NCBI GenBank assembly: GCA_037042915.1
Contig: CM073202.1
Coordinates: forward strand, 1,860,001 to 1,924,000
Reading direction: 5' to 3'
DNA from: Auricularia sp. M13
Lineage: Eukaryota > Basidiomycota > Agaricomycetes > Auriculariales > Auriculariaceae
Length of the DNA: 64,000 nt
Shown: positions 23,571 through 60,453 of the stretch, one piece after another
How positions within the stretch are numbered: position 1 is the stretch's first letter
Layout: every line of letters starts with the position of its first letter
Position numbers and translations under genes: made by a program
The notes under the pieces: generated by a model
Database searches by the model: none
Told to the model about the DNA's origin: nothing
Seen by the model: the letters and a program-made list of their open reading frames with translations, nothing else

Positions 23571-24154
23571 GTCTGATGTCGGTCTGGCCTGCGGAAGTCA
23601 GTGCCGCAGGGGGCGGCTTTCAGCGTGGGCAGCGCACAGTTCAGTAATGTTCAGTGCGCGGGCGTGCAGAAGGTCCACGAGCTCGTCCAGATTGCGATGG
23701 TAGACGTGCGGCGCAGTGACGGCGGCGCGGAGAGGTCAGCAAAACTCGGTTCGGCAGCGAGGTTGGCTGGCTATAATTTTGTGACGCCACAGTCAAAAGA
23801 GAAGAGCGACAGCACTGGCAGCGTGTAGTCTGTAGGTGCAAGAGGGAAGTGTCGCTGGTAACAGACGGAAAGGCCGTCTTGGACAGCTGAAGAGAAAATA
23901 GCCGGCAGCAGCTCCGCTGTCCCGTTGACGGTCGCTATCCCGCTGACTGAAGGTGCGTCGGGCTCGTGCGGAGCCCATGGATAAATCTAATGGGGAATTG
24001 ACAGGCGCAATGGACGTAGGAAGTACTGCATACTGCAAAGTATCTTGAACAGTTGTGGTGAAATGTTCGTCTGTACATGCCAAATCGCCGGACGAGGGAT
24101 TGCATGACGAAAAACGTCCTGCATCAAGTTTGACAGTCGAGAGCGGGACACTAC

Positions 24155-25011
24155 TGTTGCGGTCATCACGGCCGTCGCAAGCTCTGTCCGCTTGCCCGCG
24201 GGTTTTACGCCGCTTCGCCGAGCGTTCGGTCGCTGCTGTATACAGTCGGCGCACTGTTTATCCTCGGACGGAGACTCGGCCAGGGTTATACGCCTAGAGT
24301 TGCTCACCTCGGGATATGATCGACGCGCCGCTCTCTACCTGTCTAGAGGGTGAGACGACCTCGGCGCATACCCCAATTCGGCTCGGTGGAGGCTTCTTCT
24401 CCTCGGACCAGGGTTCGGCAGCTTTCCCTTCGCCGTATATGTCGGATATGGGCGTTACGGTGCTCGGGACAAGCTCCAGGACCACCTTCGGACCTGGGGC
24501 TGACTCGGCGGGTCACCTTGAGCGGCCTCGGAGAGTCGGGAACGCCTCTATTGGACTTCTCGTGGGTGCGGTACTCCTCGGATGGATAGTAGGCTGGTTA
24601 TCATCGCCTGATACAAGCTCGGCTACACCCTCGGACCCTCGGCCCGTGGCCTCAACAGTGCGGCGCTCTCCCCGTGTACTCGGGAGGTGCCCTCCTCCTC
24701 GGTCCGTACCCTCGGTGGATGGGTGTGCGTGTGTAGCATACCTCGGCACCTTCACCCTATCTCGGACCACGTGCGACTGGAGGTGTGGTATGGTTTTGGC
24801 ACCATGGGAGACGACGGTGGGTGGACCCTTTAGCTCCGGGATCACCCTGGACCGGATCAGCGGACCTTGGGGAGGGTATATAGGTTGTAGGGTGTAGATG
24901 CGTGTACCCTAGGTTTGGTCTGGTCAATTGTACCGCTTGTCCGTTCTTCCTCGTCCCTCTCTCCTCTCTTGGGCGTCGGTCTCGGCGAGTGACGAGCGCT
25001 CTGCCGTGACA
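24155..25011 (+). repeat. 5' LTR of the non-autonomous element
   Basis: 857 bp, TG...CA. TATATA at 24877-24882 is 34 nt before AGGTTTGGTCT (24911), the inferred RNA 5' end and self-primer. Confidence 0.85.
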
Positions 25012-25013
25012 TA

Positions 25014-25024
25014 AGACCAAACCT
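25014..25024 (+). other. self-priming primer-binding site
   Basis: AGACCAAACCT, exact reverse complement of LTR positions 24911-24921, and separated from the LTR end by TA. There is no TGG start, which argues against ordinary tRNA priming. Confidence 0.7.
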
Positions 25025-26010
25025 TCACTCCCTTTCGACCGACGCTCATCCCTCTTCTCCTTCCCCACACGGCCGCGGCGTCCTCTCGACTACTATCGCC
25101 CGTGTGTCAAAGCCGACGACCTCATCAGGCCGGCCTCGCCGTCAGCGAGCCGCTGTGCACCGGCCGAGGTCCATTGGCACCCGCATCCTTCTCCCTCGGA
25201 GTCGCCACCCACCCCGAGAAGCGAGGCGTACGCTGTCAAGGCCCTATCTCCACCCCATCGGCCGCAGCGCATGACCAAGCCCTTGGCACAGCCTCTCCAC
25301 ACGGTCGCGCGGGATACCCCGATCCCGCCCTCGGCGACCCCTGGTGCAGCACCTCCTTCGCACCTTCTACCCCGGCGAGTAAACCGAGACACTCGCCTAC
25401 GCCCAAAATCCCACCCCGGTTGTCTGGACTTGCGCGCTCAAGCCACAGCTGTTGTACCTTCCCCTCTCGCACGCCATCGGCAGATGGGGCCTCGGCCGTG
25501 ATCCGGATGGACTGGATGCACGCGCCGCAACGCCCGAGATATGTATACCCTCATCCCGAGGACGTCACGACCCACTGGCCACTGGCTGGACGAACTGTAC
25601 GATGTCTCACGACCCTCCGAGCTCACGCCGAAGCTCCGGCAACCAGTAACTTCACTCGCTGCGCGAATCCCAGCCGCCGACGGCGGATCCCACACGTTCC
25701 TTATTTCCCTTATCACTTACAGGTCGTGGGCGCGGGCGCAGTCGGACCCACAGGACACAGTACAAGATTGGAATCCCACGGCCCTCGGACACTGGATTCG
25801 GCCGCAGAAGACATACATTAAACGGCACCCCATCTAGGATGGACGCGCAGGCGGTCGGAACCGAACCCTTGGACCCGCAGGGAGGAGCCCAATTATTCTC
25901 ACACGGACCCGGACCCTCGCCTCGGTCGCAAGTTCAAGAAAACTATTTATATTTTGTACACGCGCCCATTGCGACAAGAAAACTACATACAAGCCGGCCG
26001 ATTCGAGCAT
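25025..26010. other. internal leader region of the LTR element without recognised coding function
   Basis: A 239-codon plus-strand ORF (25102-25821) is present. It is Pro/Ser/Arg-rich without gag or other motifs and is not called as a gene. Confidence 0.5.
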
Positions 26011-27441
26011 CTAGTCCATATCCATCGCCTCCTCCACCTCCTCCTCCTCCTCCTCCTCCGGACCCGACTCAGGTGGCGCGGATGCGCGCGAGGAGGCCGC
26101 CCCAGGTGTCACGGAGGCGCGCGACGACCGAGTAGCGGTACCCGCTGCGAAGCGAGTGCCCCGACGCATCGCCGAGCGCAAAGGCGCCGTCGCCGACGGC
26201 TGCGCATTCGCGGCCGCACCCCCGGTGACCAGCGCCCACGCCGCCGCAAACTGGCCCATGAAGTTGGGGTGCAGCGCGGGCGCTGCGACCCGACCTCACC
26301 CGGCGCCTCGATAGGCAGCGCCGGCAAGCTCTCCTTCGCCGCCCGGGACCGCGACACACGGGACGATGACGATGCGGGCACCTGGGACGTGACCGACGCG
26401 GCGCGGAACGAGAAGGGCGGCGCGCGCGCCCGATACCGGCGCCTTGGAGCCCTTGCCCGTCTTGGTCCCGAACCCGAGCGGGGCGCGCAGGTCCTTCCAA
26501 GAGCACTTTACCTTCCGACGCGAGCACTCGAGGCACGCCGCCAGCCCCTGCGCCGGAAGGCAGTCGTCGTCGCGGTCCGCACAACGGCTGCACGGCTGCC
26601 CAGTGTCAGATATCACAACCCGCGCTGGACGATGGTAACTACTCACCGAGGTCGGGACCCCATGGCGGTCTATCAGACCCTCCGCGAACGCCCGGTCCCA
26701 CGCATGTCGGCGGTCGCGCAGAGCGGGTTGCTCCTCCACGCCGGGCGGGGGTGTCCGTGGCCGACGCGGGTGATGCAACACAGAGCCCAACGACGGCGGC
26801 GCAGGAGCGGGCGGCATCCGCACAGCAGACGATGAGCGCGGCCGACGAGCAGGCGGCGCCGAGAGAACAGACGGAGCGGGCGCCGACGGTCGGGACGAAG
26901 ACGACGCTGGCGCAGGACGACGCGGCCGAGGAACAACAACCGACGGCGGCGGCGGCGCGGACCTCTCGCACTCGGCGTACAGCGGGTGCCCGGGCGGGAT
27001 CTTCAGCGTCGAGCAACGGGTCCTGAACACGGCATCCGACGGCAGAGGCGGGAGGCGAAGCGCCAGCGGACGAACTTGCTCGGATAGCGCGGCGGGCACG
27101 GACAAAAACGGAGACAGGAGAGCGTCCGCGGGCGACGAGCAAGCAGCCAGACCGAGAGCAAGAGCACGGGCCGACGGCAACAACGAGAAGAGCAGGCGGC
27201 GCTCGACGCCGAACTCCAACTGTCGGTCGCGGGCCAGGTCACGGTGCGCAGCGGGGATGCCAGGGTCGCCGAGCGCGGCGGCGATGCGGTCCATGGCGTC
27301 GGTCAGGACAGCGATGCGGGCCTCCATATCCACGGTCCGGGCGCGCGAGAGCACAAAGTCGGGCAGCACGGGCACCCAGGCGGGTGCTCCGCCACTGCGC
27401 TGGTCGTCGCGGGCGTCGTCTGCGCGGTCTGCAGAGGGCAT
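26011..27441 (-). CDS. antisense cargo gene: Zn2Cys6-like cysteine-cluster protein with acidic tail
   Basis: Start chosen at the ATG ending at 27441 (MPSADRADDARD); an in-frame ATG also ends at 27513. After an Ala/Leu-rich helical region and a Pro/Ser linker, there is a cluster CSRCADRDDDC then CLECSRRKVKC, spacing C-x2-C-x6-C-x8-C-x2-C-x6-C. The Arg/Lys-rich half comes second, the reverse of classical fungal Zn2Cys6 factors. A 51-bp intron candidate (26596-26646; donor GTGAGT, CTGAC branch-like site, acceptor CAG) lies just before the cluster, and its removal keeps the frame. Beyond the cluster, best coding sequence continues through two frame changes (about 26410 and about 26280) to FMGQFAAAWALVTGG and an EEEEEEEVEEAMDMD tail ending at 26011. 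DNA binding is an inference. It runs opposite to the element's own RNA. Confidence 0.6.
26596..26646 (-). other. predicted 51-bp intron in the antisense cargo gene
   Basis: On the minus strand it begins GTGAGTAG and ends CTGACACTGGGCAG. The length is a multiple of three and the region also reads open, so retention would add 17 residues. Confidence 0.55.
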
Positions 27442-27608
27442 GGTGGTGGTAAGAGGACAAGAAGCAGATTGACAGGCCGAAGCTTTATGTCCAACCGCGA
27501 ACTGAATTGCCATTCAGTCCGCGGCGCCCTCGGCCCGTTGTTTCGTCCTCCCCGCCTTTCGCCTCTCGCCCTCGGACGCTCTCTCGGCTCGCGGCTTGAA
27601 AGGGGTTA

Positions 27609-28466
27609 TGTTGCGGTCATCACGGCCGTCGCAAGCTCTGTCCGCTTGCCCGCGGGTTTTACGCCGCTTCGCCGAGCGTTCGGTCGCTGCTGTATACAGT
27701 CGGCGCACTGTTTATCCTCGGACGGAGACTCGGCCAGGGTTATACGCCTAGAGTTGCTCACCTCGGGATATGATCGACGCGCCGCTCTCTACCTGTCTAG
27801 AGGGTGAGACGACCTCGGCGCATACCCCAATTCGGCTCGGTGGAGGCTTCTTCTCCTCGGACCAGGGTTCGGCAGCTTTCCCTTCGCCGTATATGTCGGA
27901 TATGGGCGTTACGGTGCTCGGGACAAGCTCCAGGACCACCTTCGGACCTGGGGCTGACTCGGCGGGTCACCTTGAGCGGCCTCGGAGAGTCGGGAACGCC
28001 TCTATTGGACTTCTCGTGGGTGCGGTACTCCTCGGATGGATAGTAGGCTGGTTATCATCGCCTGATACAAGCTCGGCTACACCCTCGGACCCTCGGCCCG
28101 TGGCCTCAACAGTGCGGCGCTCTCCCCGTGTACTCGGGAGGTGCCCTCCTCCTCGGTCCGTACCCTCGGTGGATGGGTGTGCGTGTGTAGCATACCTCGG
28201 CACCTTCACCCTATCTCGGACCACGTGCGACTGGAGGTGTGGTATGGTTTTGGCACCATGGGAGACGACGGTGGGTGGACCCTTTAGCTCCGGGATCACC
28301 CTGGACCGGATCAGCGGACCTTGGGGAGGGGTATATAGGTTGTAGGGTGTAGATGCGTGTACCCTAGGTTTGGTCTGGTCAATTGTACCGCTTGTCCGTT
28401 CTTCCTCGTCCCTCTCTCCTCTCTTGGGCGTCGGTCTCGGCGAGTGACGAGCGCTCTGCCGTGACA
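27609..28466 (+). repeat. 3' LTR of the non-autonomous element
   Basis: 858 bp. Differs from the left LTR by one additional G before TATATAGG. Confidence 0.85.
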
Positions 28467-28664
28467 ACTACCCACTGTGCCATGTTACAAAGCGAGGAAA
28501 AAAAGACGGGCTCGCTGTCGCTACACGTTGGAGGGTGCTCCGCGTAATTTGTCGTGGATATCGACTCGGCCATGTCCAATTCACAGGCCGCTTGAATTGT
28601 ATCTTGCGCGCCCGCGGCGAGCTCAACAGTCAACACAGCATCTTTTCGCGCCGCGCTGGTCGCA

Positions 28665-41098: not shown

Positions 41099-41381
41099 TG
41101 TTACGGTGACCGAGGATACTCGCCGAACGGACGCTCTGCGGGTGGGGGAAAAAGGACGAGATGTATCGGCGGTGGGCAAACCAGCTCGAATCTAGCATAC
41201 AAAGAGCGGACAGCACACGGTATATAAAGGGGGTCCGGATCCGGCCGGACCGCTGACCGCAGGCCGGGGCCACGCATGCGCCGGCGGGTCTCGGTCTGAT
41301 GACTCGGTCCGTATGACGTCGGCGCGAGTGAGGTCCGATAAGCCCAACGGCGATAGGAGCGAAAGCGAATGAGCCGTAACA
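41099..41381 (-). repeat. 3' LTR of Gypsy copy A
   Basis: 283 bp, TG...CA. Confidence 0.9.
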
Positions 41382-41391
41382 TAACCCCCTA

Positions 41392-44300
41392 CTAGGACCG
41401 AACGAGCGTCGTGCCGAGGGCCCGCGCCCTGCGGGCCGCGGTGACCGGGTCGGGGATGTTGAAGTCGATCCCTGTGGTATGGTGGCGCTCGAAGAAGTTG
41501 GAGGGAAATATGGCACGGTCGAAGACGAGAGAGTGGATGTTCTGGGGTTTACCCGGGTTGCGGCGGACGAAGTCCTCGACGGCGCCGATCGCGTTGCCGA
41601 GATTTCCCTTGGGGACCCAGGAGTTGTGCTCGCGCCCGTAGCCGGCCCATTTGACCAGGTAGACAACGCCTCGTCCGAGCTTCTTGGAATCCAGGATCTC
41701 CTCCACTTCGTACTCCTCGTGATCGTCCACGATGGTCGGCGCTGGCGGGCGGGGCGGCGTTGGTGCGGGGCGTACGGCGCAACGTACGGCGAGAGGAGGC
41801 TTTCGTGGAAGACGGGGTGTAGGTTTTTCCACGCCTCCGGCAGCTCCAATTTGAAGGCGGAATGACCCACACTTTCGAGGATCTTGAAAGGACCGAAGCG
41901 CCGTTCGGCCAGTTTCTTGGACGAGACCGCAAGCTTGAGGTTGGTCGCTTCGAGCCACACTTTGTCGCCGACCTTGTATTGTCGCGAAGCACCTCGGCGC
42001 CGGTCGTACTGTGTCTTCATGGACGCGGCGGCCTTGGTGAGTGCGGATTTGGCCTCCTCCCAGGTCCGTTCCATCCGCTGGGCGAACTGGGCGGCCGACT
42101 CGTTGGTGACCACTCGCCGCGGTTCCACGCCCATACGTGGGTGGCGACCGTGATTGAGGAAGAACGGAGACGTACCCGTCGCCTCGGACGCGCGGTTGTT
42201 GATGGCGAACTCGGCCATAGCGAGCCAGTCGGCCCAGTCATCCTGCCGGGCGTTGGTCCATGCGCGAAGGTACTTCTCGATCTCCGCGTTCTCCCGCTCG
42301 GTCTGTCCGTCGGTCTGCGGGTGGTACGCGGTGGACGGGTTTGCCTCGATACCGAGGAGCTTGTAGAGCTCGTTCGCGAATCCCGACACGAACTGCGGGC
42401 CGCGGTCGCTGATGAGCTTCTTGAACAGGCCGAACCGTTTGAAGACGAAGTCACGGTACAAGCGCGCTATACCCTCCGACGTCACCGTAACATGCGTCGG
42501 GCAGAGGATGACCATCTTGCTGTGGCGGTCGGTCACGACGAAGACCGCGTTGAAGCCAAACGACTCGGGCAATGGCCCGATGAGGTCGGCGGAAACGACC
42601 TCCCACGGAGCACTCGGCGCCTCGTTGGGGTGTAGGGGTCCTGCCAGGGTCCGTGCCTCGGTTTGGAGCGTTGGCAAACGTCGCATGCGCGGACGTAACG
42701 CGCAACATACGCGGTCATGCCGGGGAACCAGTAGTACCGGTTAAGGAGCTCCAAAGTCTTGTACCTGCCCGGATGTCCTGCTATCGGTGTGTCGTGAAAT
42801 GCGCTGACGATGCGTTCACGTAGTCGGCGGTTACGCGGGATGTAGACTCGGCCTTTGTACTCGACGACGCCGTTCGTCTCCACAAAGTCCTGCGGGTACG
42901 CAAGCAGGCCCTTCTTGACTGCCTCGTCGCGTTCGTTGGCGTACTTGCGAACCTCGGCCAGGATGTGGTCCTCGTCTCGGAGTCCTAGTTGCCGAATGAT
43001 CACGTCCAACGGTCCGTTGTGCTCCTCGGCGAGTTGACGAAAACGGTCCGGTTGCAGGAGGACAACGTCGGCGTTGTCTTCTGCCCCTCATTAGGCATGT
43101 TCCGGCTCAGCTCGTCGGCGATGACGTTCGTCTTGCCCGGCCGGTGGTGCAATGTAAAATCATACTCGGAGAGCTCGGTGAGCCAACGAGCTTGCCGACG
43201 GTTGAGCTTTGCGGCTCGCGGAAGTACTGCAGATTCCGATGGTCGGTCCATATCTGGAACTGCGGGGCCCCTTTGAGGAAGTGGCGCCAATGTTCGAGGC
43301 AAAGCATCATCGCGAGCATCTCCCTTGTCGTAGATCTCGTAATTACGCTCGGCGGGACTGAAGCTCTTGCTAAAGAACCCGAGTGGGCGTAGCTTCCCGT
43401 CGATGACCTGGTGGAGGACTCCTCCTGCCGCGTAGTCTGAAGCGTCGGTCTCCAACCTGAACGGGGCCCGGTCCTGGGGGAGAAGAAGAGTAACGTCGTT
43501 GCACACGGCGTCGCGAAGGTCCTCGAAAGCCTGCTGCTGCTCCGGGCCCCATTCGAATACGACCCCTTTTCCGTTAGACGGTTGAAGGGTTTCGTGATGT
43601 GCGCGAAATGGGGGATGAAGTTCCGGTAGAAGTTACAGAACTGCATGAACGACCGGACCTCCCGCAGGTTGCGCGGGGGGTTCCAACGGCGTATGGCCTC
43701 CACCTTGACTGGGTCCATGGATACCTGCCCGTTTCCTACAACCAGGCCGAGGAACTTGACTTGGGCTTGCTCGAACTCGCATTTCTCCAGTTTGAGGTAT
43801 AGGCCTGTCTGCCGACACAGTTCCAGTACGGCCCGAACCGCGGTCCGATGGTCCTCCAAGGTGCGGGTAAAAACCAAAAGGTCGTCCATATAGACGATAA
43901 GGACGATCCGCCGAATAAGGTCGCCGAATATGTCGTCCACCATGCGTTGGAAGGTGGCCGGGCTGTTGGTCATGCCGAAGAACATGACGGTGGGTTCGAA
44001 CAGACCTCGGCTCGTGATGAACGCGGCCTTGAATTCGTCTCCCGGTCGGATTCGGACGTTGTTGTACCCCCATCGGACGTCGAACTTAGAGAAATAACGG
44101 GCGTCCTTGATCTTGGTCATGACGTCGGCGACCAGCGGGAGGGGGTAGGAGTCCCGCACGGTGTGGTCGTTGAGCCTCCTGTAATCCATAGTCGGTCGGA
44201 GTCCTCCATCCTTCTTGCCGACGAAGAAAAGCGGCGATGCAATGGGCGAGTTGGACGGCCGAATACGACCCGTCGCTAGGTTCTCGTCCAAGAACTCGTT

Positions 44301-45177
44301 CATCGCCTGTGTCTCCTTCGGCGACAAGGCGTAAACCTTTCCGCGGAGCTTGCGGTCGTTCTCCCATCCGGGCCGGAGGTTGATTTCGTGATCCCACCGA
44401 CGATGGGGGGTAGCTTGTCGAATTCCTTCTTTTCGAACACGTCGGCGTACTCGCGGTAGTATTCGGGGATGTCGGCGACGACGGCGGGTTTGGCGGCCTG
44501 CTCAATGCGGGTTGAGATAGACTCGAAAGCCCGAACGTACTCTTCTTCGTCGTCGGCCGCGAACTCCAAAGCGTCGGCGAGTGAGGCGAAGTCCTCGGCG
44601 AGGTAGCGGGCCGAGCTCGGCGCCGGGTTCGGCATACCACAGCGAGGCGGGCAGCGGGTGAACGTGAGCGCCCCTTCGGCCAGTCAATTTCCGGGTTGTG
44701 CTCCACCAACCAGTCGTATCCTAGAAAGAGGTCGTGTTTTCCACCAAGGTTGGCTACCGGAAAGTCGCGCCGTTCGCGGTGTTCGCGGCCGCGTGCGTCG
44801 CGCACGACCACAAGGAGTTCGACGTACTCCTTGATAAATCCGTTGACCGAGCCGTCGGCGTTGTAGACGGTCCGAACGACGGCTGCGGCTTGGGTTGTAA
44901 GCTGCCGGCGTTTGACAAACGCCTGGTCCACACTTGAGGTCGTGCATCCACTATCCAAAAGAGCTTTGGCCGGGATCCGTTCTCCGGTGTCGAGGGAGGT
45001 GAGGGTGAGAGGTATGTTCATTTGCCTTAGGGCCGAGGGTCGGACCTCGGCGAGTCTTAGGTGTTCACGCTCGGTGTGCGTATCGACAAGACGTTCATCT
45101 GTATTCGGTACGGAGGGCACACCGTCGCCTTCCCACAGGGATCGCGCGGAAATCACTGCGGGGCGGAAAAATCCTTG
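41392..45177 (-). pseudogene. Gypsy copy A pol (protease, RT, RNase H, integrase, chromodomain), frameshifted
   Basis: Protease: LLDSGCTTSS (catalytic Asp) near 44950. RT: fingers LSPKETQAMNEFLDE and active site YMDD at 43881-43892. RNase H: DASDYAAGGVL near 43430. Integrase: zinc site H-x4-H (HDTPIAGHPG) with CDVCQRSK, and core residues in SADLIGP, ISDRGPQF and TDGQTERENAE. The C-terminal chromodomain EYEVEEILDSKK through YLVKWAGYGREHNSW (near 41660) binds modified histone tails in this group and can direct insertion into heterochromatin. The stop at 41392 (LGTTLVRS end) sits just before the polypurine tract. Frame changes occur near 44672, 44405, 43559, 43375, 43088, 43207, 42645 and 41745, nearly all in homopolymers. 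Confidence 0.85.
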
Positions 45178-46250
45178 TCCTCGGTCTCCTCGGCGTGTTC
45201 CTCCAGGAGCGTGGATTTTCCTTCGACCATCCGAGCGATCTCCTCCATGTCCTCGGTGGAAAGGCCTCGGATGACGTCCTTGAAGTTCCTCTCCTGGCAG
45301 TCCCGAGCGAGATGGCCGGGTTTCTTGCAGCGGTAGCAGAGTCCTAGGGTCCGAGCGCGGTGACGGTCCACGTCCATGGGGTCCGGGTCGTGCGCAGGAC
45401 CGGTGGTGGCTGGGGCGGTGATCGCCGGAGCGGGCGCCGCGGCAGGTACGATCACCGGTTGAGTCACCCTCTCGGTGTAATGGTGAACGAAGGGCTTGGC
45501 CGCCGGGCGCGGCGTAGAGTTGGTGGCCGGGCGTGGTCACCGTGGCGGCGGATAATCGGGTCCTGCTCAAGGGCGTACTTGCGGAATTGAAAGTATCCGA
45601 GCGGTTTCTCGGCGTCGGCCTCCATCTTGACGAGCTTGTCCTCGGTGGCGACCTCGGCCTTGCGAAGTCCTTCGACCGTGGCGAGACTGGTGGTCCGGAA
45701 GATTTCGTGCGACTGCATCACGGCGAGGACGAGCGCCGGCTTGAGGTTGCGCCGAAGGTAGTCGACGAGAACGATGTCGTGATACTCCGGGTTGGTAAAT
45801 CCGGCCTTGATGCGGAGCTCGTCGAACTTGAGGAAGAAGGTGTCGGCGTCGCCTCGGCCTTGAGTGAGCTTGGAGATCGCCTCGCGGGCGTGCTCGGCGA
45901 TGCGCGGGTCGAGGAACTTCGTCGAGGTCGCGAAGGAAGTCGCTCCACTTGAGGTCCGGCGAGTCCAGGTCGTGGAGCTGACCCCAGTTCTGTGCCCAAG
46001 CGTCGGCGTCACCTTTGGTCAGGAAGCCGAGCGCGGCGAGTATCTTGTTGCGGTCGCCGGGGATTCCTTTGACGTGGAGCTCCAAGGTCCGACGGAAGGT
46101 CTCGTAGTTGGCGCGGGTCCCATCGTAATCCTCCGGGGCCTGGACGTAGTTTTTGGTGGGTGGGTTGCCCGGTTTGAGTCCGAGCGATTTGATGGCGTTG
46201 ACCAACGACGTTTCGATGGAGGTAGCGAACTCCTCGGTCGTCATCGGCAT
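45153..46250 (-). pseudogene. Gypsy copy A gag, frameshifted
   Basis: Same protein as the intact gag at 51185-52342. A CT loss near 45920 and a G loss near 45533 break the frame. The zinc knuckle CYRCKKPGHLARDC is at about 45295-45340. In this copy the gag frame ends DKDFSAPQ-stop at 45153 and pol lies in the -1 frame, overlapping it. Confidence 0.85.
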
Positions 46251-46411
46251 CTTGACGGTGGTGTCGGGGAAAGCGAAAGGCGCTGGAGATGGGAGGCGAG
46301 TTCTTCGCCGTCGGCCTGGACGTCGGGGGTGGTGTGCGACAGCTTGACCGAGGGCGCGGGGTGAAGGCGGGGGAAGGAACGGGGATACGCGGAGCGTCGG
46401 TAAGGGAGGGG

Positions 46412-46423
46412 TAGATTCGAGCT
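46412..46423 (-). other. self-priming primer-binding site of Gypsy copy A
   Basis: Minus strand AGCTCGAATCTA, 2 nt from the LTR end. It is an exact complement of TAGATTCGAGCT within the LTR. Confidence 0.75.
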
Positions 46424-46425
46424 TA

Positions 46426-46709
46426 TGTTACGGTGACCGAGGATACTCGCCGAACGGACGCTCTGCGGGTGGGGGAAAAAGGACGAGATGTATCGGCGGT
46501 GGGCAAACCAGCTCGAATCTAGCATACAAAGAGCGGACAGCACACGGTATATAAAGGGGGTCCGGATCCGGCCGGACCGCTGACCGCAGGCCGGGGCCAC
46601 GCATGCGCCGGCGGGTCTCGGTCTGATGACTCGGTCCGTATGACGTCGGCGCGAGTGAGGTCCGATAAGCCCAACGGCGATAGGAGCGAAAAGCGAATGA
46701 GCCGTAACA
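46426..46709 (-). repeat. 5' LTR of Gypsy copy A
   Basis: 284 bp. On the minus strand TATATA is followed 32 nt later by TAGATTCGAGCT (plus 46510-46521), the inferred RNA start. Confidence 0.9.
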
Positions 46710-47186: not shown

Positions 47187-47470
47187 TGTTACGGTGACCG
47201 AGGATACTCGCCGAACGGACGCTCTGCGGGTGGGGGAAAAAGGACGAGATGTATCGGCGGTGGGCAAACCAGCTCGAATCTAGCATACAAAGAGCGGACA
47301 ACACAGGGTATATAAAGGGGGTCCGGATCCGGCCGGACCGCTGACCGCAGGCCGGGGCCACGCATGCGCCGGCGGGTCTCGGTCTGATGACTCGGTCCGT
47401 ATGACGTCGGCGCGAGTGAGGTCCGATAAGCCCAACGGCGATAGGAGCGAAAAGCGAATGAGCCGTAACA
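47187..47470 (-). repeat. 3' LTR of Gypsy copy B
   Basis: 284 bp, preceded on the minus strand by the polypurine tract TAGTAGGGGGTTA (plus 47471-47483). Confidence 0.9.
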
Positions 47471-47480
47471 TAACCCCCTA

Positions 47481-50400
47481 CTAGGACCGAACGAGCGTCG
47501 TGCCGAGGGCCCGCGCCCTGCGGGCCGCGGTGACCGGGTCGGGATGTTGAAGTCGATCCCTGTGGTATGGTGGCGCTCGAAGAAGTTGGAGGGAAATATG
47601 GCACGGTCGAAGACGAGGGAGTGGATGTTCTGGGGTTTACCCGGGTTGCGGCGGACGAAGTCCTCGACGGCGCCGATCGCGTTGCCGAGATTTCCCTTGG
47701 GGACCCAGGAGTTGTGCTCGCGCCCGTAGCCGGCCCATTTGACCAGGTAGACAACGCCTCGTCCGAGCTTCTTGGAATCCAGGATCTCCTCCACTTCGTA
47801 CTCCTCGTGATCGTCCACGATGGTCGGCGCCGGCGGGGCGGGGCGGCGTTGGTGCGGGGCGTACGGCGCAACGTACGGCGAGAGGAGGCTCTCGTGGAAG
47901 ACGGGGTGTAGGTTTTTCCACGCCTCCGGCAGCTCCAGTTTGAAGGCGGAATGACCCACACTTTCGAGGATCTTGAAAGGACCGAAGCGCCGTTCGGCCA
48001 GTTTCTTGGACGAGACCGCAAGCTTGAGGTTGGTCGCTTCGAGCCACACTTTGTCGCCGACCTTGTATTGTCGCGAAGCACCTCGGCGCCGGTCGTACTG
48101 TGTCTTCATGGACGCGGCGGCCTTGGTGAGCGCGGATTTGGCCTCCTCCCAGGTCCTTTCCATCCGCTGGGCGAACTGGGCGGCCGACTCGTTGGTGACC
48201 GCTCGACGCGGTTCCACGCCCATACGTGGGTGGCGACCGTGATTGAGGAAGAACGGAGACGTACCCGTCGCCTCGGACGCGCGGTTGTTGATGGCGAACT
48301 CGGCCATAGCGAGCCAGTCGGCCCAGTCATCCTGCCGGGCGTTGGTCCATGCGCGAAGGTACTTCTCGATCTCCGCGTTCTCCCGCTCGGTCTGTCCGTC
48401 GGTCTGCGGGTGGTACGCGGTGGACGGGTTTGCCTCGATACCGAGGAGCTTGTAGAGCTCGTTCGCGAATCCCGACACGAACTGCGGGCCGCGGTCGCTG
48501 ATGAGCTTCTTGAACAGGCCGAACCGTTTGAAGACGAAGTCGCGGTACAAGCGCGCTATACCCTCCGACGTCACCGTAACATGCGTCGGGCAGAGGATGA
48601 CCATCTTGCTGTGGCGGTCGGTCACGACGAAGACCGCGTTGAAGCCAAACGACTCGGGCAATGGCCCGATGAGGTCGGCGGAAACGACCTCCCACGGAGC
48701 ACTCGGCGCCTCGTTGGGGTGTAGGGGTCCTGCCAGGGGTCCGTGCCTCGGTTTGGAGCGTTGGCAGACGTCACATGCGCGGACGTAACGCGCAACATAC
48801 GCGGTCATGCCGGGGAACCAGTAGTACCGGTTAAGGAGCTCCAAAGTCTTGTACCTGCCCGGATGTCCTGCTATCGGTGTGTCGTGAAATGCGCTGACGA
48901 TGCGTTCACGTAGTCGGCGGTTACGCGGGATGTAGACTCGGCCTTTGTACTCGACGACGCCGTTCGTCTCCACAAAGTCCTGCGGGTACGCAAGCAGGCC
49001 CTTCTTGACTGCCTCGTCGCGTTCGTTGGCGTACTTGCGAACCTCGGCCAGGATGTGGTCCTCGTCTCGGAGTCCTAGTTGCCGAATGATCACGTCCAAC
49101 GGTCCGTTGTGCTCCTCGGCGAGTTGACGAAAACGGTCCGGTTGCAGGAGGACAACGTCGGCGTTGTCTTCTGCCCCCTCATTAGGCATGTTCCGGCTCA
49201 GCTCGTCGGCGATGACGTTCGTCTTGCCCGGCCGGTGGTGCAATGTAAAATCATACTCGGAGAGCTCGGTGAGCCAACGAGCTTGCCGACGGTTGAGCTT
49301 TTGCGGCTCACGGAAGTACTGCAGATTCCGATGGTCGGTCCATATCTGGAACTGCGGGGCCCCTTTGAGGAAGTGGCGCCAATGTTCGAGGCAAAGCATC
49401 ATCGCGAGCATCTCCTTGTCGTAGATCTCGTAATTACGCTCGGCGGGACTGAAGCTCTTGCTAAAGAACCCGAGTGGGCGTAGCTTCCCGTCGATGACCT
49501 GATGGAGGACTCCTCCTGCCGCGTAGTCTGATGCGTCGGTCTCCAACCTGAACGGGGCCCGGTCCTGGGGGAGAAGAAGAGTAACGTCGTTGCACACGGC
49601 GTCGCGAAGGTCCTCGAAAGCCTGCTGCTGCTCCGGGCCCCATTCGAATACGACCCCCTTTTCCGTTAGACGGTTGAAGGGTTTCGTGATGTGCGCGAAG
49701 TGGGGGATGAAGTTCCGGTAGAAGTTACAGAACTGCATGAACGACCGGACCTCCCGCAGGTTGCGCGGGGGGTTCCAACGGCGTATGGCCTCCACCTTGA
49801 CTGGGTCCATGGATACCTGCCCGTTCCTACAACCAGGCCGAGGAACTTGACTTGGGCTTGCTCGAACTCGCATTTCTCCAGTTTGAGGTATAGGCCTGTC
49901 TGCCGACACAGTTCCAGTACGGCCCGAACCGCGGTCCGATGGTCCTCCAAGGTGCGGGTAAAACCAAAAGGTCGTCCATATAGACGATAAGGACGATCCG
50001 CCGAATAAGGTCGCTGAATATGTCGTCCACCATGCGTTGGAAGGTGGCCGGGCTGTTGGTCATGCCGAAGAACATGACGGTGGGTTCGAACAGACCTCGG
50101 CTCGTGATGAACGCGGCCTTGAATTCGTCTCCCGGTCGGATTCGGACGTTGTTGTACCCCCATCGGACGTCGAACTTAGAGAAATAACGGGCGTCCTTGA
50201 TCTTGGTCATGACGTCGGCGACCAGCGGGAGGGGGTAGGAGTCCCGCACGGTGTGGTCGTTGAGCCTCCTGTAATCCATAGTCGGTCGGAGTCCTCCATC
50301 CTTCTTGCCGACGAAGAAAAGCGGCGATGCAATGGGCGAGTTGGACGGCCGAATACGACCCGTCGCGAGGTTCTCGTCCAAGAACTCGTTCATCGCCTGT

Positions 50401-51246
50401 GTCTCCTTCGGCGACAAGGCGTAAACCTTTCCGCGGAGCTTGCGGTCGTTCTCCCATCCGGGCCGGAGGTTGATTTCGTGATCCCACCGACGATGGGGGT
50501 AGCTTGTCGAATTCCTTCTTTTCGAACACGTCGGCGTACTCGCGGTAGTATTCGGGGATGTCGGCGACGACGGCGGGTTTGGCGGCCTGCTCAATGCGGG
50601 TTGAGATAGACTCGAAAGCCCGAACGTACTCTTCTTCGTCGTCGGCCGCGAACTCCAAAGCGTCGGCGAGTGAGGCGAAGTCCTCGGCGAGGTAGCGGGC
50701 CGAGCTCGGCGCCGGGTTCGGCATACCACAGCGAGGCGGGCAGCGGGTGAACGTGAGCGCCCCTTCGGCCAGTCAATTTCCGGGTTGTGCTCCACCAACC
50801 AGTCGTATCCTAGGAAGAGGTCGTGTTTTCCACCAAGGTTGGCTACCGGAAAGTCGCGCCGTTCACGGTGTTCGCGGCGCGCGTGCGTCGCGCACGACCA
50901 CAAGGAGTTCGACGTACTCCTTGATAAATCCGTTGACCGAGCCGTCGGCGTTGTAGACGGTCCGAACGACGGCTGCGGCTTGGGTTGTAAGCTGCCGGCG
51001 TTTGACAAACGCCTGGTCCACACTTGAGGTCGTGCATCCACTATCCAAAAGAGCTTTGGCCGGGATCCGTTCTCCGGTGTCGAGGGAGGTGAGGGTGAGA
51101 GGTATGTTCATTTGCCTTAGGGCCGAGGGTCGGACCTCGGCGAGTCTTAGGTGTTCACGCTCGGTGTGCGTATCGACAAGACGTTCATCTGTATTCGGTA
51201 CGGAGGGCACACCGTCGCCTTCCCACAGGGATCGCGCGGAAATCAC
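47481..51246 (-). pseudogene. Gypsy copy B pol, few frameshifts
   Basis: An open segment from 49909 down to the C-terminus joins RNase H (Asp in ETDASDYA, about residue 125 of the segment), the integrase zinc site, the integrase core (SADLIGP, ISDRGPQF, TDGQTERENAE) and the chromodomain in one frame. The last residues shift frame near 47543 because of one missing G, so the native stop beside the polypurine tract is missed. Protease (LLDSGCTTSS) and RT (YMDD) lie in 49827-51246 in other frames; breaks are at a GC run near 50880, C5 near 50500, G4 near 50762 and near 49820. The first two pol breaks by the protease-RT linker (50762, 50500) are also present in copy A. Confidence 0.87.
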
Positions 51247-52342
51247 TGCGGGGCGGAAAATCCTTGTCCTCGGTCTCCTCGGCGTGTTCCTCCAGGAGCG
51301 TGGATTTTCCTTCGACCATCCGAGCGATCTCCTCCATGTCCTCGGTGGAAAGGCCTTGGATGACGTCCTTGAAGTTCCTCTCCTGGCAGTCCCGAGCGAG
51401 ATGGCCGGGTTTCTTGCAGCGGTAGCAGAGTCCTAGGGTCCGAGCGCGGTGACGGTCCACGTCCATGGGGTCCGGGTCGTGCGCAGGACCGGTGGTGGCT
51501 GGGGCGGTGATCGCCGGAGCGGGCGCCGCGGCAGGTACAATCACCGGTTGAGTCACCCTCTCGGTGTAATGGTGAACGAAGGGCTTGGCCGCCGGGCGCG
51601 GCGTAGAGTTGGTGGCCGGGGCGTGGTCACCGTGGCGGCGGATAATCGGGTCCTGCTCAAGGGCGTACTTGCGGAATTGAAAGTATCCGAGCGGTTTCTC
51701 GGCGTCGGCCTCCATCTTGACGAGCTTGTCCTCGGTGGCGACCTCGGCCTTGCGAAGTCCTTCGACCGTGGCGAGACTGGTGGTCCGGAAGATTTCGTGC
51801 GACTGCATCACGGCGAGGACGAGCGCCGGCTTGAGGTTGCGCCGAAGGTAGTCGACGAGAACGATGTCGTGATACTCCGGGTTGGTAAATCCGGCCTTGA
51901 TGCGGAGCTCGTCGAACTTGAGGAAGAAGGTGTCGGCGTCGCCTCGGCCTTGAGTGAGCTTGGAGATCGCTTCGCGGGCGTGCTCGGCGATGCGCGGGTC
52001 GAGGAACTTCTCGTCGAGGTCGCGAAGGAAGTCGCTCCACTTGAGGTCCGGCGAGTCCAGGTCGTGGAGCTGACCCCAGTTCTGTGCCCAAGCGTCGGCG
52101 TCACCTTTGGTCAGGAAGCCGAGCGCGGCGAGTATCTTGTTGCGGTCGCCGGGGATTCCTTTGACGTGGAGCTCCAAGGTCCGACGGAAGGTCTCGTAGT
52201 TGGCGCGGGTCCCATCGTAATCCTCCGGGGCCTGGACGTAGTTTTTGGTGGGTGGGTTGCCCGGTTTGAGTCCGAGCGATTTGATGGCGTTGACCAACGA
52301 CGTTTCGATGGAGGTAGCGAACTCCTCGGTCGTCATCGGCAT
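51185..52342 (-). CDS. Gypsy copy B gag polyprotein, intact
   Basis: 385 residues, start at the ATG ending at 52342 (MPMTTEEFATSIETSLVNAI). The capsid-like region (residues about 35-235) is helical with DADAWAQNWG and LVDYLRRNLKPALV typical of Ty3/Gypsy gag. A Pro/Ala linker leads to a CCHC zinc knuckle C306-x2-C309-x4-H314-x4-C319 that binds RNA during particle assembly. Gag packages the element RNA in cytoplasmic particles. The last roughly 20 residues differ from copy A because copy B has one A fewer in an A run near 51257; which version is native is unclear. Pol overlaps gag in another frame, so production of Pol would need frameshifting or a fused frame. Confidence 0.88.
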   Translation of the reverse strand: MPMTTEEFATSIETSLVNAIKSLGLKPGNPPTKNYVQAPEDYDGTRANYETFRRTLELHVKGIPGDRNKILAALGFLTKGDADAWAQNWGQLHDLDSPDLKWSDFLRDLDEKFLDPRIAEHAREAISKLTQGRGDADTFFLKFDELRIKAGFTNPEYHDIVLVDYLRRNLKPALVLAVMQSHEIFRTTSLATVEGLRKAEVATEDKLVKMEADAEKPLGYFQFRKYALEQDPIIRRHGDHAPATNSTPRPAAKPFVHHYTERVTQPVIVPAAAPAPAITAPATTGPAHDPDPMDVDRHRARTLGLCYRCKKPGHLARDCQERNFKDVIQGLSTEDMEEIARMVEGKSTLLEEHAEETEDKDFPPRSDFRAIPVGRRRCALRTEYR

Positions 52343-52503
52343 CTTGACGGTGGTGTCGGGGAAAGCGAAAGGCGCTGGAGATGGGAGGCGAGTTCTTCGC
52401 CGTCGGCCTGGACGTCGGGGGTGGTGTGCGACAGCTTGACCGAGGGCGCGGGGTGAAGGCGGGGGAAGGAACGGGGATACGCGGAGCGTCGGTAAGGGAG
52501 GGG

Positions 52504-52515
52504 TAGATTCGAGCT
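52504..52515 (-). other. self-priming primer-binding site of Gypsy copy B
   Basis: Identical to copy A's site and complementary to LTR positions 52602-52613. Confidence 0.75.
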
Positions 52516-52517
52516 TA

Positions 52518-52801
52518 TGTTACGGTGACCGAGGATACTCGCCGAACGGACGCTCTGCGGGTGGGGGAAAAAGGACGAGATGTATCGGCGGTGGGCAAAC
52601 CAGCTCGAATCTAGCATACAAAGAGCGGACAACACATGGTATATAAAGGGGGTCCGGATCCGGCCGGACCGCTGACCGCAGGCCGGGGCCACGCATGCGC
52701 CGGCGGGTCTCGGTCTGATGACTCGGTCCGTATGACGTCGGCGCGAGTGAGGTCCGATAAGCCCAACGGCGATAGGAGCGAAAAGCGAATGAGCCGTAAC
52801 A
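52518..52801 (-). repeat. 5' LTR of Gypsy copy B
   Basis: 284 bp with the TATATA box and 32-nt spacing to the inferred RNA start as in copy A. Confidence 0.9.
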
Positions 52802-52821
52802 GGGAACCGAGAAATACAGCC

Positions 52822-53780: not shown

Positions 53781-54193
53781 TGCATGGCGTGACTCCCGTG
53801 TTCAAGTTATACATCTTCCCACTCCCCCTGCCATTCTCCTGCACCCTTCTATTCACTTCCTTGTGTGTTTGGGATACTCCACCCACGCACCCTTTTGTTG
53901 TGCAGCTCCTCTCTACTACTGAATCCATTAGGGCGTTTCACGGTAGCGTTTTGAGGCCGTTTTTAAGGTGTTTTGGGACTTGTTTTGTTTTCTGTTTTTG
54001 GCAAAAATGGGACCCCGGAACACGCAAAAAAGGACCGGAAACGACCGAAAAACGGCTCTCGCAGAAACGACCTTGTCGTCGTTTCTGCAGGCTCGTTTCG
54101 TTTTCCCTCTCTTTTCACTAACTCTTTTTTTCTCTCTGCTTCCGTCGGCCCACGAGCTCCGGGACTGGGCTGCCTCTTGACGCTCCTTTCCAT

Positions 54194-55693
54194 GCCTCCC
54201 AAGCCCAAGCCCAAGTCGGGCAAGGCAACCGTCGCCGCCGCCGCTCCAACTGCCCCTGCCATGGGCACACCCACTGCCGTCGCCCATGGAGGCTCTTCTG
54301 GGGCCGCTGCAGCGGGTACTACTGCCGGTGACGTGGAGGACACCGCCAACTCGACCGCCTCGCGTGCGACACGTGTTGAATGGGCCAAGCGACCCGTGCT
54401 GACGGAGCGCCTTGTCAGCTACCTCGTCGACAACCCCGGCTTCCGTATCAAGCTGTTTTCGGACGCTGTCGGCAACGCCAAGAAGGACAACCGCAGGCGG
54501 CAGACGGCCAAGGACTCCAAAGCGCAACATCACCTTACGCTCGCCGAGTTCATCTTCGCCGACGCTGAAGATAGGGAAGCCTTTGAGGCCAACAGGAAGA
54601 AGTTTGCAGATTCCGTTGGGCAACGCTTGGCACGGTGTGTAACGTTCCGTTTACATGATTTTTTTCCGCAAGGAGCTCGGGCAGACAGGCAGCGGACTCC
54701 TGCAGACTGCTGAAGCCGAGAATCAAATCGGTGTGTCTCGTTCTCGCTATCATATGCCATCTGATGGTCGTGGTCTCGCGCGCAGAGGCTATTCGCGTCG
54801 AATGGCCGTGGTGGGACGATCTCCACGCGTTCTGGTCCGAGCTGCCCAACTACGCACCGGTCGGTGTCACAGCATCAGAACCTGGGATCGACCATGCTGC
54901 GGCAGCAGCGTCCTTGTTCAAACCGCTGGCGCGCTCGGAAACTTTCGGCGAGGAGGAAGACGCAGAGATGGACGCTGATCCGATGGTACGCTACCTTCAC
55001 TGTGCATGCTTTGTCGAACTTATGGCGCCCCAGGCAAACGAAGAGGAGGATGACAGCCCTGCTACGATGGATGACAACGATTCTGCCAGGCTTGGCGGTG
55101 CTTCGTTTGATGATCTCGACGACACGAGCAGCGCGCGCGCACAGTCTCACAGCCGTCGCACGTCATCTTCGGGTGCGGACTGGGAGGATGACGTTGATGA
55201 AAACCCCTTCGTTCGTGCTCCTGCTGCTGCTCGGGCTTCACGTGCAGCCAAACCCACGTCCACTCACCGCTCCGATTCCGCTCACCGCTCTGAGTCCACC
55301 TCCCGTCGTTCCGCTCCTGCTTCCCAGGCTTCGTCTCGGTCTGCTTCGCTGCAGCCTCAGACAGCTAAGGCCGCAAAGAACAAGCAAACCCCCCTTGAAG
55401 TCCTTCGAGAGACCCGCCTTGCTGATACCAAGCGCCTTGACACGAAGCGCAAATTTGAGCACAACGAGAATATGGAAATTGCGCAGGTCAAGCGCATGCG
55501 GCTTCAGCTAGAGCATGAGCGTGCTATGCAGGACCGTGAGCATCAGGCGCGCCAGGCTCAGGCGGACCGCAAGCATCAGCTTCAGCTGAAGCAGCTCGAG
55601 CTGCAGATTGCACTTGCCTCTCGCCGTCCCGATCTCAACTTGCAGGGCGCGTTCGAGAACTTTGGCGGCCCTGATCCTGGCCTGGGTTTCTGA
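54194..55693 (+). CDS. Harbinger-associated Myb/SANT-like DNA-binding protein
   Basis: Start at 54194 (MPPKPKPKSGKATVAAAAPT). The trihelix-like domain begins RVEWAKRPVLTERLVSYLVD and continues FRIKLFSDAVGNAKKDN. A short intron follows at about 54635-54672, then ELGQTGSGLLQTAEAENQI. The second intron (about 54731-54785) leads to EAIRVEWPWWDDLHAFWSEL, and a third follows MDADPM (about 54985-55032). The C-terminal half is Ser/Glu-rich and ends in a Lys/Glu/Gln coiled coil (EHERAMQDREHQARQAQADR). In PIF/Harbinger elements this partner binds subterminal DNA and brings the transposase to the nucleus. The precise first-intron boundaries are uncertain: two alternative donors exist and one of them breaks the frame. 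Confidence 0.78.
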
Positions 55694-55753
55694 GGGAAGT
55701 ACATACTCTACGACACTCCTAATCGATACTACTGAGTAGATACACACGCCTAA

Positions 55754-59625: not shown

Positions 59626-60453
59626 TGTTGCGGTCATCACGGCCGTCGCAAGCTTTGTCCGTTCGCCCGCGGGCTTTACGCCGCTTCACCGAGCGCTCGG
59701 TCGCCGCTGCATACAGTCGGCGCACTGTTTACCCTCGGGCGGAGACTCGGCCAGGGTTGTACGCCTCGGGCTGCTCAACTCGGGATATGATCGACGTGCC
59801 CCTCTCTACCTGTCTAGGGGGTGAGACGACCTCGGCGCATACCTCAATTCGGCTCGGTGGAGGCTTCTTACCCTCGGACCAGGGTTCGGCTGCTCTCCCC
59901 TCGCTGTATGCGTCGGGTATGGGTGTTGTGATGCTCGGGACGGGCTCTAGGGGTCACCCTGAACAGCCTCGGAGGGTCGGGAACGCCTCTATTGGACTCC
60001 TCGCTGGTGCGGTACCCTTCGGATGGATACCAGGCAGGTTATCATCGTCTGGTACAAGCTCGGCTACACCCTCGGACCCTCGGCCCGTGTTCTCATCAGC
60101 TTGGCGCTCTCCCCGCGCACTCAGGAGGTGTCATCCTTCTCGGTCCGTGTCCTCGGCGGGTGTGTGCGTGTGTGTAGCATACCTCAGCACCTTCGCTCTG
60201 TCTCGGACCATGTTCGGCTGGAGGTGTGGGAGGGTGCTGGCACCATGGGAGACGATGATGGACGGACCCCTTAGCTTCGGGATTCCCCTGGACCGGATCA
60301 ACGGACCTTGGAGATGGGTATATAGGCTGTGGGGTGTAGATGTACGTACCCTAGGTTTGGTCTGGTCAATTGTACCGCTTGTCCGTTCTCCCTCGTCCCT
60401 CTCTCCTCTCTTGGGCGTCGGTCTCGGCGAGTGACGAGCGCTCTGCCGTGACA
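59626..60453 (+). repeat. solo LTR (828 bp) of the non-autonomous element family
   Basis: Homologous over its length to 24155-25011 but with many substitutions. TGTTGCGG...CCGTGACA, with target duplication GACGG (59621-59625, 60454-60458). It retains TATATAGG and AGGTTTGGTCT. It is clearly older than the 24155 copy. Confidence 0.88.

Follow-up and report, generated by a model that had tools for sequence, protein, structure and literature searches.

An LTR retrotransposon family that lacks gag-pol and keeps an antisense gene for a probable nuclear regulator

Introduction

Why should a retrotransposon without gag or pol keep a gene of a quite different kind? The question is raised by positions 24155-28466 of the 64,000-nucleotide stretch of Auricularia sp. 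M13 analysed here (the window; positions 1,860,001-1,924,000 of contig C10), where a long terminal repeat (LTR) element carries an intron-containing gene on the strand opposite to its own RNA. A sequence-only reading of the locus had suggested a family of passengers bearing a putative regulator. From searches of the genome (52 Mb, 14 contigs) we favour, with moderate confidence, another account, in which a helper-dependent Ty3 LTR family keeps an antisense accessory gene whose product is probably a nuclear regulator, most likely of the element's own LTR.

A young LTR element without gag-pol

The element and its flanks are organised as follows.

24150..24154 and 28467-28471, unstranded: left and right copies of the target-site duplication, sequence ACTAC
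24155..25011, plus strand: 5' LTR, 857 bp
24877..24882, plus strand: TATATA box of the sense transcript
24911..24921, plus strand: likely start of R; these 11 nt pair with the primer site
25012..25508, plus strand: conserved leader, mean difference 2-5% among seven subfamily representatives
25014..25024, plus strand: putative self-priming primer-binding site AGACCAAACCT; TAAGACCAAACC follows the 5' LTR in 21/21 copies
27598..27605, plus strand: polypurine tract GAAAGGGG, with TTA between the tract and the 3' LTR
27609..28466, plus strand: 3' LTR, 858 bp, with the same 18 U3 CTCGG sites as the 5' LTR

Paired LTRs with TG..CA ends, a target-site duplication, a primer site and a purine tract identify 24155-28466 as an LTR retrotransposon. 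The LTR pair shows 0 mismatches over 857 aligned bases and a single 1-base gap, and neither gag nor pol was found in the 2.6-kb interior, which agrees with the recent retrotransposition of a unit without replication genes that had been read from the sequence, purine tract included. This is a young LTR element that moved recently via its sense RNA and has no gag-pol. Its interior consists of the leader, a more variable middle and the antisense gene, which adjoins the 3' LTR; the leader is the most conserved portion of the interior across the family, and we would guess at a packaging signal within it. A sense open reading frame (ORF) of 191-193 aa also runs across most of each LTR (window 24316-24897 and 27770-28345, plus strand), and a Pfam search with its 5'-LTR copy gave no match.

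A genome search with the element returned 29 matches, 21 of which are single alignments of at least 3.9 kb (among the best 26 of 194 candidates). Our copy set for this family, here called family 1, comprises these 21, which were fetched and are used in all alignments, and a 22nd copy (L011) split by a nested insertion. The 21 copies fall into seven subfamilies (average linkage at 5%), with interiors 82-100% identical to the window copy; all share the same 2.6-kb interior, and none has gag-pol. Both ends are complete in 18 of the 21, every one of these 18 has an exact 5-bp duplication, and their LTR pairs show no mismatch in 10 cases, one in 7 and two in 1 (gaps not counted), so several lineages have moved recently. 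With the leader as query, 34 matches represent 33 copies, the split copy being counted twice (all 34 candidates scored) and tandem arrays being included. In each of the 33 the gene is matched on the opposite strand, between the leader and the 3' LTR (leader and protein searches compared by eye), and copies with gag-pol in the place of the gene, which the sequence-only reading had named as its own counter-evidence, were not found. Nor were gag-pol versions with a family-1 LTR found among the best 40 of 227 LTR candidates, beyond which others may exist. The LTR-only places that we read (L030, L031/L032, L034, L040-L046) are solo LTRs with 5-bp duplications.

Tandem LTR-interior-LTR-interior arrays of family 1 lie at C3:2499000-2514700 (L036, L037, L050) and C11:2666100-2678000 (L038, L039), the former having probably grown in place, since it has a single flanking duplication, GTGGC. 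At C3:4074388-4084567 (L031, L032) several tandem copies of a host segment share a solo LTR with the identical duplication CAGTG, which indicates that the segment was duplicated after the LTR had inserted.

The antisense gene is under selection as a protein

The gene reads from beside the 3' LTR towards the leader.

26647..27441, minus strand: exon 1, 265 codons, start ATG at 27441
26596..26646, minus strand: intron, 51 nt, phase 0, GT..AG
26011..26595, minus strand: exon 2, stop at 26011-26013; frame-shifted in the window copy
26500..26595, minus strand: codons of the six-cysteine cluster, directly after the intron
27442..27608, minus strand: conserved upstream region with CATAAAG (27483-27489), a CT-rich stretch and a CACCATG context
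25943..25953, minus strand: AATATAAATAG after the antisense stop, a possible poly(A) signal

Both the gene at 26011-27441 and its 51-bp intron, predicted earlier from the window alone, are borne out by the family. The ATG and the GT..AG intron borders occur in 21/21 aligned copies, with an intron of 51 or 52 nt, and the divergence is coding-like beyond chance. Seven representatives differ at codon positions 1/2/3 by 0.159/0.092/0.331 in exon 1 and by 0.122/0.068/0.197 in exon 2; for the intron, which changes fast, the values are 0.45/0.45/0.36, and the flanks are nearly flat (upstream 0.076/0.075/0.068, downstream 0.091/0.080/0.080, leader 0.029/0.018/0.040). It should be noted that codon positions were counted on window coordinates, and that the signal of exon 2 is weakened because indels of the window copy shift part of it out of phase (block 26415-26326, 0.268/0.108/0.063). 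That copy does not encode the full protein, its spliced product ending at 364 aa after a shift within exon 2; the spliced frame is open end to end, at 459-464 aa, in 7/21 aligned copies. When these 7 are compared, the 18 pairs that join different subfamilies have a ratio of nonsynonymous to synonymous divergence (dN/dS) of 0.17-0.25; the other 3 pairs, which lie within subfamilies and hold few changes, give 0, 0.42 and 0.46. Judged from these patterns of divergence, the predicted antisense protein is under purifying selection across seven subfamilies.

We rejected sense-strand coding as the source of the codon pattern because the antisense frame is free of stops and because it is the antisense start, splice sites and stop codon that are conserved; the sense frame with coinciding third positions has stops in exon 1 of 7/7 open copies and in exon 2 of 2/7. 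Alternatively, the antisense transcript itself might regulate the element, through double-stranded RNA or interference, and the protein would be incidental. The gene does oppose the element RNA, and antisense RNA roles are discussed for such genes in the available part of PMC7264820, yet the codon-position pattern and the dN/dS of 0.17-0.25 speak for selection on the protein, and we regard this alternative as very improbable.

The intron also tells which strand was copied. Since 21/21 recently moved copies keep it, and a copied spliced antisense mRNA would have lost it, the RNA that was reverse transcribed was the sense RNA, just as the layout had led the sequence-only reading to expect.

Beyond its stop, the antisense gene is followed by AATATAAATA. 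Upstream of its start lies an inverted repeat, ACTGAATTGCCATTCAGT (window 27501-27518), partly conserved in the 21 copies and a possible candidate binding site.

The element would prime on its own RNA

The primer site proposed earlier exists, but it is not a tRNA site: the sequence that follows the LTR does not begin with TGG and instead matches the LTR's own R. AGACCAAACCT complements 11 nt of the LTR from LTR position 757, 34 nt past TATATA. We made the same comparison in one element each of four families, namely family 1, families 2 and 3 (described below) and the window's other Ty3 element; in all four, the stretch just past the 5' LTR can pair with 11-12 nt of the LTR that lie 32-34 nt beyond a TATA box, and shuffles reach the complement length in 4, 0, 0 and 0 of 2000 cases, respectively. 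Elements of the Tf1/sushi type are marked by a primer site that pairs with the beginning of their own RNA, and by this feature family 1, which has no pol, appears to belong to the self-priming Ty3 kind.

Similar antisense genes include one in an autonomous Ty3 family

The combined LTR end and primer site, GTGACATAAGACCAAAC, has 59 mismatch-free occurrences in the genome. Family 1 accounts for 33, and 24 of the other 26 have a second type of antisense gene downstream on the opposite strand (family 2; about 28 gene places picked from 67 matches). Family 2 has an LTR of 481 bp, and gag-pol was not seen in the two copies read (L051, L052). Its antisense protein is 397 aa long once a 69-nt phase-0 intron directly before PCEQC is removed; this intron contains no in-frame stop, and the unspliced reading is also open. 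On the sense strand, family 2 has an ORF with a chromodomain (E 1.6e-9 in L051; L051:2432-3304, L052:555-2036), perhaps left over from pol, perhaps a second accessory protein.

A weak match of the family-2 protein (36%, E 0.005) led to an element of a third family (L054), with two 726-bp LTRs 99.9% alike, a gag-like ORF without a Pfam match, and a pol with reverse transcriptase (RVT_1), RNase H and integrase, SH3_Tf2-1 lying in another frame (the pol frame is interrupted in this copy). This autonomous family 3 carries, between pol and the 3' LTR, an antisense gene that codes for 376 aa and is interrupted by two phase-0 introns; the second, 51 nt long, ends directly before CEAC. A phase-0 intron thus sits directly before the cluster in families 1, 2 and 3, with lengths of 51, 69 and 51 nt. 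For the family-3 gene we picked 46 main places from 106 matches and compared them with a list of 150 reverse transcriptases (the best 150 of 348 candidates): 37/46 are opposite to and downstream of a listed reverse transcriptase, 32 at 2.7-3.6 kb and 5 at 5.1-7.9 kb, while 1 is placed otherwise and 8 have none listed within 8.5 kb.

Family 2, likewise without gag-pol, and the autonomous Ty3 family 3 therefore carry antisense genes that match the one of family 1 in layout, orientation and the place of the intron. We infer that the three share one ancestor, so that the gene would belong to a retrotransposon lineage as an accessory and would have survived the loss of gag-pol. The family proposed in the sequence-only reading is thus real, with the same gene in 33 copies; the passenger idea fares less well, and an accessory gene is the better reading because a gene of this kind is also found in an autonomous Ty3 family, where it lies antisense between pol and the 3' LTR, with an intron at the same place.

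A host regulator captured antisense, as cargo, by a non-autonomous element could also give family 1, the genes of the other families being separate captures from one host gene family. Such captures would suit the finding that between families the proteins align in the cluster alone, and a further weak relative of the family-3 protein lies at C1:9395570-9395998 (28%, E 4.9e-5), although no untransposed host relative was seen. However, three captures in the same orientation and with the same phase-0 intron place, one of them by an autonomous family, are less likely, and selection acts within elements across seven subfamilies; we hold separate captures to be rather improbable. The C1 sequence itself perhaps marks a fourth family or a host gene.

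The antisense gene is not general to Ty3 elements, because the window's other Ty3 element (41-53 kb) has no room for one, its pol ORF reaching the LTR. At that place two 99% identical chromodomain Ty3 elements with 284-bp LTRs lie side by side on the minus strand (window 41099-46709 and 47187-52802), self-priming and without the antisense gene. Further on, at window 54192-56880, ORFs resemble by eye a PIF/Harbinger-type transposase and its partner. Taken together, chromodomain elements, self-priming Ty3 elements and introns of very small size are what one would expect in a fungus, probably a basidiomycete.

The predicted protein resembles a zinc-cluster regulator

The family-1 protein would consist of a helical N-terminal stretch, a Pro/Ser/Arg-rich linker, the six-cysteine cluster and an acidic tail, and acidic tails are found in families 1 and 3. 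Zn2Cys6 domains have the spacing CX2CX6CX5-12CX2CX6-8C and a basic stretch between cysteines 2 and 3. The clusters of families 1, 2 and 3 all have this spacing, with inner spacers of X8, X10 and X8. In family 1 (CX2CX6CX8CX2CX6C) the basic part, CSRRKVKC, is not at the usual place but between cysteines 5 and 6, so the earlier description of Zn2Cys6 spacing with the basic half second was accurate.

Structure prediction gave a mean predicted local distance difference test (pLDDT) score of 57.8 for exon 1, with about 80 for residues 41-90, and a mean of 50 for exon 2; the best Foldseek match of the exon-1 model, to MIT three-helix bundles, has an E value of 0.63. Protein databases yielded 0 matches to the window ORF and 0 to the family-1 exon-2 alignment, and one to the family-2 protein (92%, metagenome source), in each case among the best ~8,000 candidates. 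A PDB sequence search with the exon-2 alignment gave 0 matches, and an NCBIfam search nothing meaningful. Taken by its sequence features, the antisense protein is probably a nuclear DNA-binding regulator.

A directed CTCGG array in U3

The LTR contains a candidate target for such a regulator, and a diverged LTR elsewhere in the window shares it.

24263..24765, plus strand: U3 array of 18 same-strand CTCGG sites, 5' LTR copy (LTR positions 109-611)
window 59626..60453, plus strand: solo LTR of a diverged family-1 relative (85%), duplication GACGG, 17 CTCGG

CTCGG occurs 19 times on the sense strand of the LTR and once on the other, against a mean of 3.3 and a maximum of 9 in 500 dinucleotide shuffles, and among the 60 commonest 5-mers its z score is the highest. 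Elsewhere in the window the mean is 1.8 per 858 bases and strand, and no other scanned 858-base stretch exceeds 11. The 18 U3 sites are irregularly spaced, and U3 lies upstream of the RNA start. Compared with eight diverged LTRs, the difference is 0.036 within CTCGG sites and 0.140 elsewhere in U3; 52 other NNCGN sites differ by 0.122, and 0/10,000 random draws are as low as the CTCGG sites. Of the 18 sites, 16-18 are kept in the six LTRs of active subfamilies, 14 in a solo LTR, and 9 in an old truncated copy, near its background. LTRs of families 2 and 3 have 5-7 CTCGG each (z 2.7-4.0), and the LTR of the window's other Ty3 element has 1 (z 0.8). In family 2 the difference is 0.017 in the sites and 0.057 elsewhere, on 3 U3 sites.

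Zinc-cluster factors commonly read CGG. The array is for this reason a natural candidate target, and perhaps the antisense protein acts on the element's own LTR through it. The array could also be bound by a host factor, which the element would borrow to drive its promoter: CGG is read by zinc-cluster factors of the host as well, and the array is striking in family 1 alone, while the element carries a zinc-cluster-like gene of its own under selection. We treat a host factor as possible but short of probable; it touches the target only and is compatible with the rest of our explanation.

The protein might instead be no transcription factor but bind nucleic acid within the retrotransposition cycle, in assembly, as a chaperone or in nuclear import. 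RNA binding would be in keeping with a basic cysteine cluster and a helical N-terminus, the leader is the most conserved part of the interior, and the Zn_clus score is below the cut-off. Against this, the spacing fits zinc-cluster DNA binders, acidic tails occur in families 1 and 3, and the conserved CTCGG sites lie in U3, upstream of the RNA start. We consider a role of this kind unlikely.

Discussion

Our preferred account is that of an antisense accessory gene kept by a helper-dependent family, and we can offer a rough proposal for how it would work. Sense RNA would start in the 5' LTR, pair its own start with the primer site and so prime reverse transcription, by analogy with Tf1. Gag, reverse transcriptase and integrase would be supplied by another Ty3 element, whose proteins, again as in Tf1, would package and integrate the element RNA. 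The antisense gene would be transcribed from beside the 3' LTR, and the predicted protein would act in the nucleus on the element's own LTR, activating or damping it. Since the gene is retained under selection without gag-pol, its product would seem to serve its own kind. More tentatively, the lineage may encode a selfish circuit, with its own antisense transcription factor and the binding array of that factor (18 or more directed CTCGG sites) in U3, both of which the gag-pol-less elements keep. Were this so, such elements would regulate their own RNA and rely on others for the machinery that copies it.

Several observations weigh against this account. The gene is intact in just 7/21 copies, and some disabling indels are common to several copies, which means that broken-gene copies moved too. 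The protein could act in trans, or it is dispensable some of the time, or some indels are assembly errors; many are 1-base indels in short G/C or T runs, which could be such errors, and others lie outside such runs. A helper that shares the primer site was looked for and not found: just 3 of the 83 LTR-end sites (CCGTGACATAAG) have a same-strand reverse transcriptase within 9 kb downstream, at 5.7-8.6 kb, and none is convincing (among the listed reverse transcriptases). Profile comparison of family 1 with families 2 and 3 aligns just the cluster (35 columns, E 2.6e-4, probability 42%; 33% in a second comparison), so the case for a common ancestor is built on the place and phase of the intron and on the orientation, position and layout of the gene. 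The Pfam Zn_clus profile (PF00172) gives 17.4 bits, below its curated cut-off of 21, and matches the second half only, at profile positions 2-14; for family 2 there is a very weak match (E 3.2) that sets the first half against profile positions 17-30, and the two partial matches fit, without proving, a swapped order of the two halves. Finally, CTCGG is not more conserved in family 3 (0.040 in the sites, 0.023 elsewhere), where the LTRs, 96-99% alike, are too alike to judge (six stretches were fetched, and L055, which has no LTR match, was left out).

Comparison with known systems

TRIM and LARD elements have LTRs, a primer site and a purine tract, lack gag-pol, are mobilised by helpers and are defined as non-coding. 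Family 1 resembles them in its LTRs, primer site and purine tract without gag-pol, but differs in that it has a conserved coding gene that appears to be under purifying selection and thus falls outside a non-coding class. Its cluster is like that of the fungal Zn2Cys6 family (PF00172) in its six fitting cysteines and in a basic stretch within one CX2CX6C half, and unlike it in that the basic half comes second and the score is below the curated cut-off. The retrovirus HTLV-1 has an antisense gene near its 3' LTR, HBZ, whose product acts in the nucleus; it differs in being an animal virus with an unrelated protein.

Antisense accessory genes in LTR elements are a known kind, in plants and in Botrytis Boty. 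In the parts of the sources available to us, HBZ is mentioned alongside them (PMC11963269), and their function is called unknown, with a regulatory role proposed (PMC7264820, PMC11963269). Boty, with its antisense gene brtn in Botrytis and Sclerotinia (Zhao et al. 2011, as cited in PMC7264820 and PMC8365987), is by its partial description like family 3, a fungal LTR element with an extra antisense gene between pol and the 3' LTR; families 1 and 2 are unlike it in keeping the gene without gag-pol. As far as the available text of PMC11963269 describes it, the plant Ty3 lineage Retand likewise has an antisense gene in most recently active copies, with predicted DNA binding and some non-autonomous members, but its product has a TRP28 domain and no six-cysteine cluster, and no intron is reported there. 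Maize Grande (gene23, which has its own promoter), rice RIRE2 and bean PvRetro13 also have an antisense gene between pol and the 3' LTR, with a function called unknown; they are plant elements with gag-pol, for which no zinc cluster is reported in the available part of the source (PMC7264820).

Our literature search, whose coverage left most subscription papers outside, found no antisense gene reported for a basidiomycete LTR element, nor any that encodes a zinc cluster. Within the literature searched, three features are new: a zinc cluster with its halves swapped, the shared intron, and selection that persists without gag-pol. A helper-dependent family that shed gag-pol, yet keeps its antisense gene and cis sites, with selection on the protein, separates the gene from gag-pol; its CTCGG array offers a concrete, testable target in a small element with many young copies, and its retained intron makes it a clean natural case that reveals which strand was copied.

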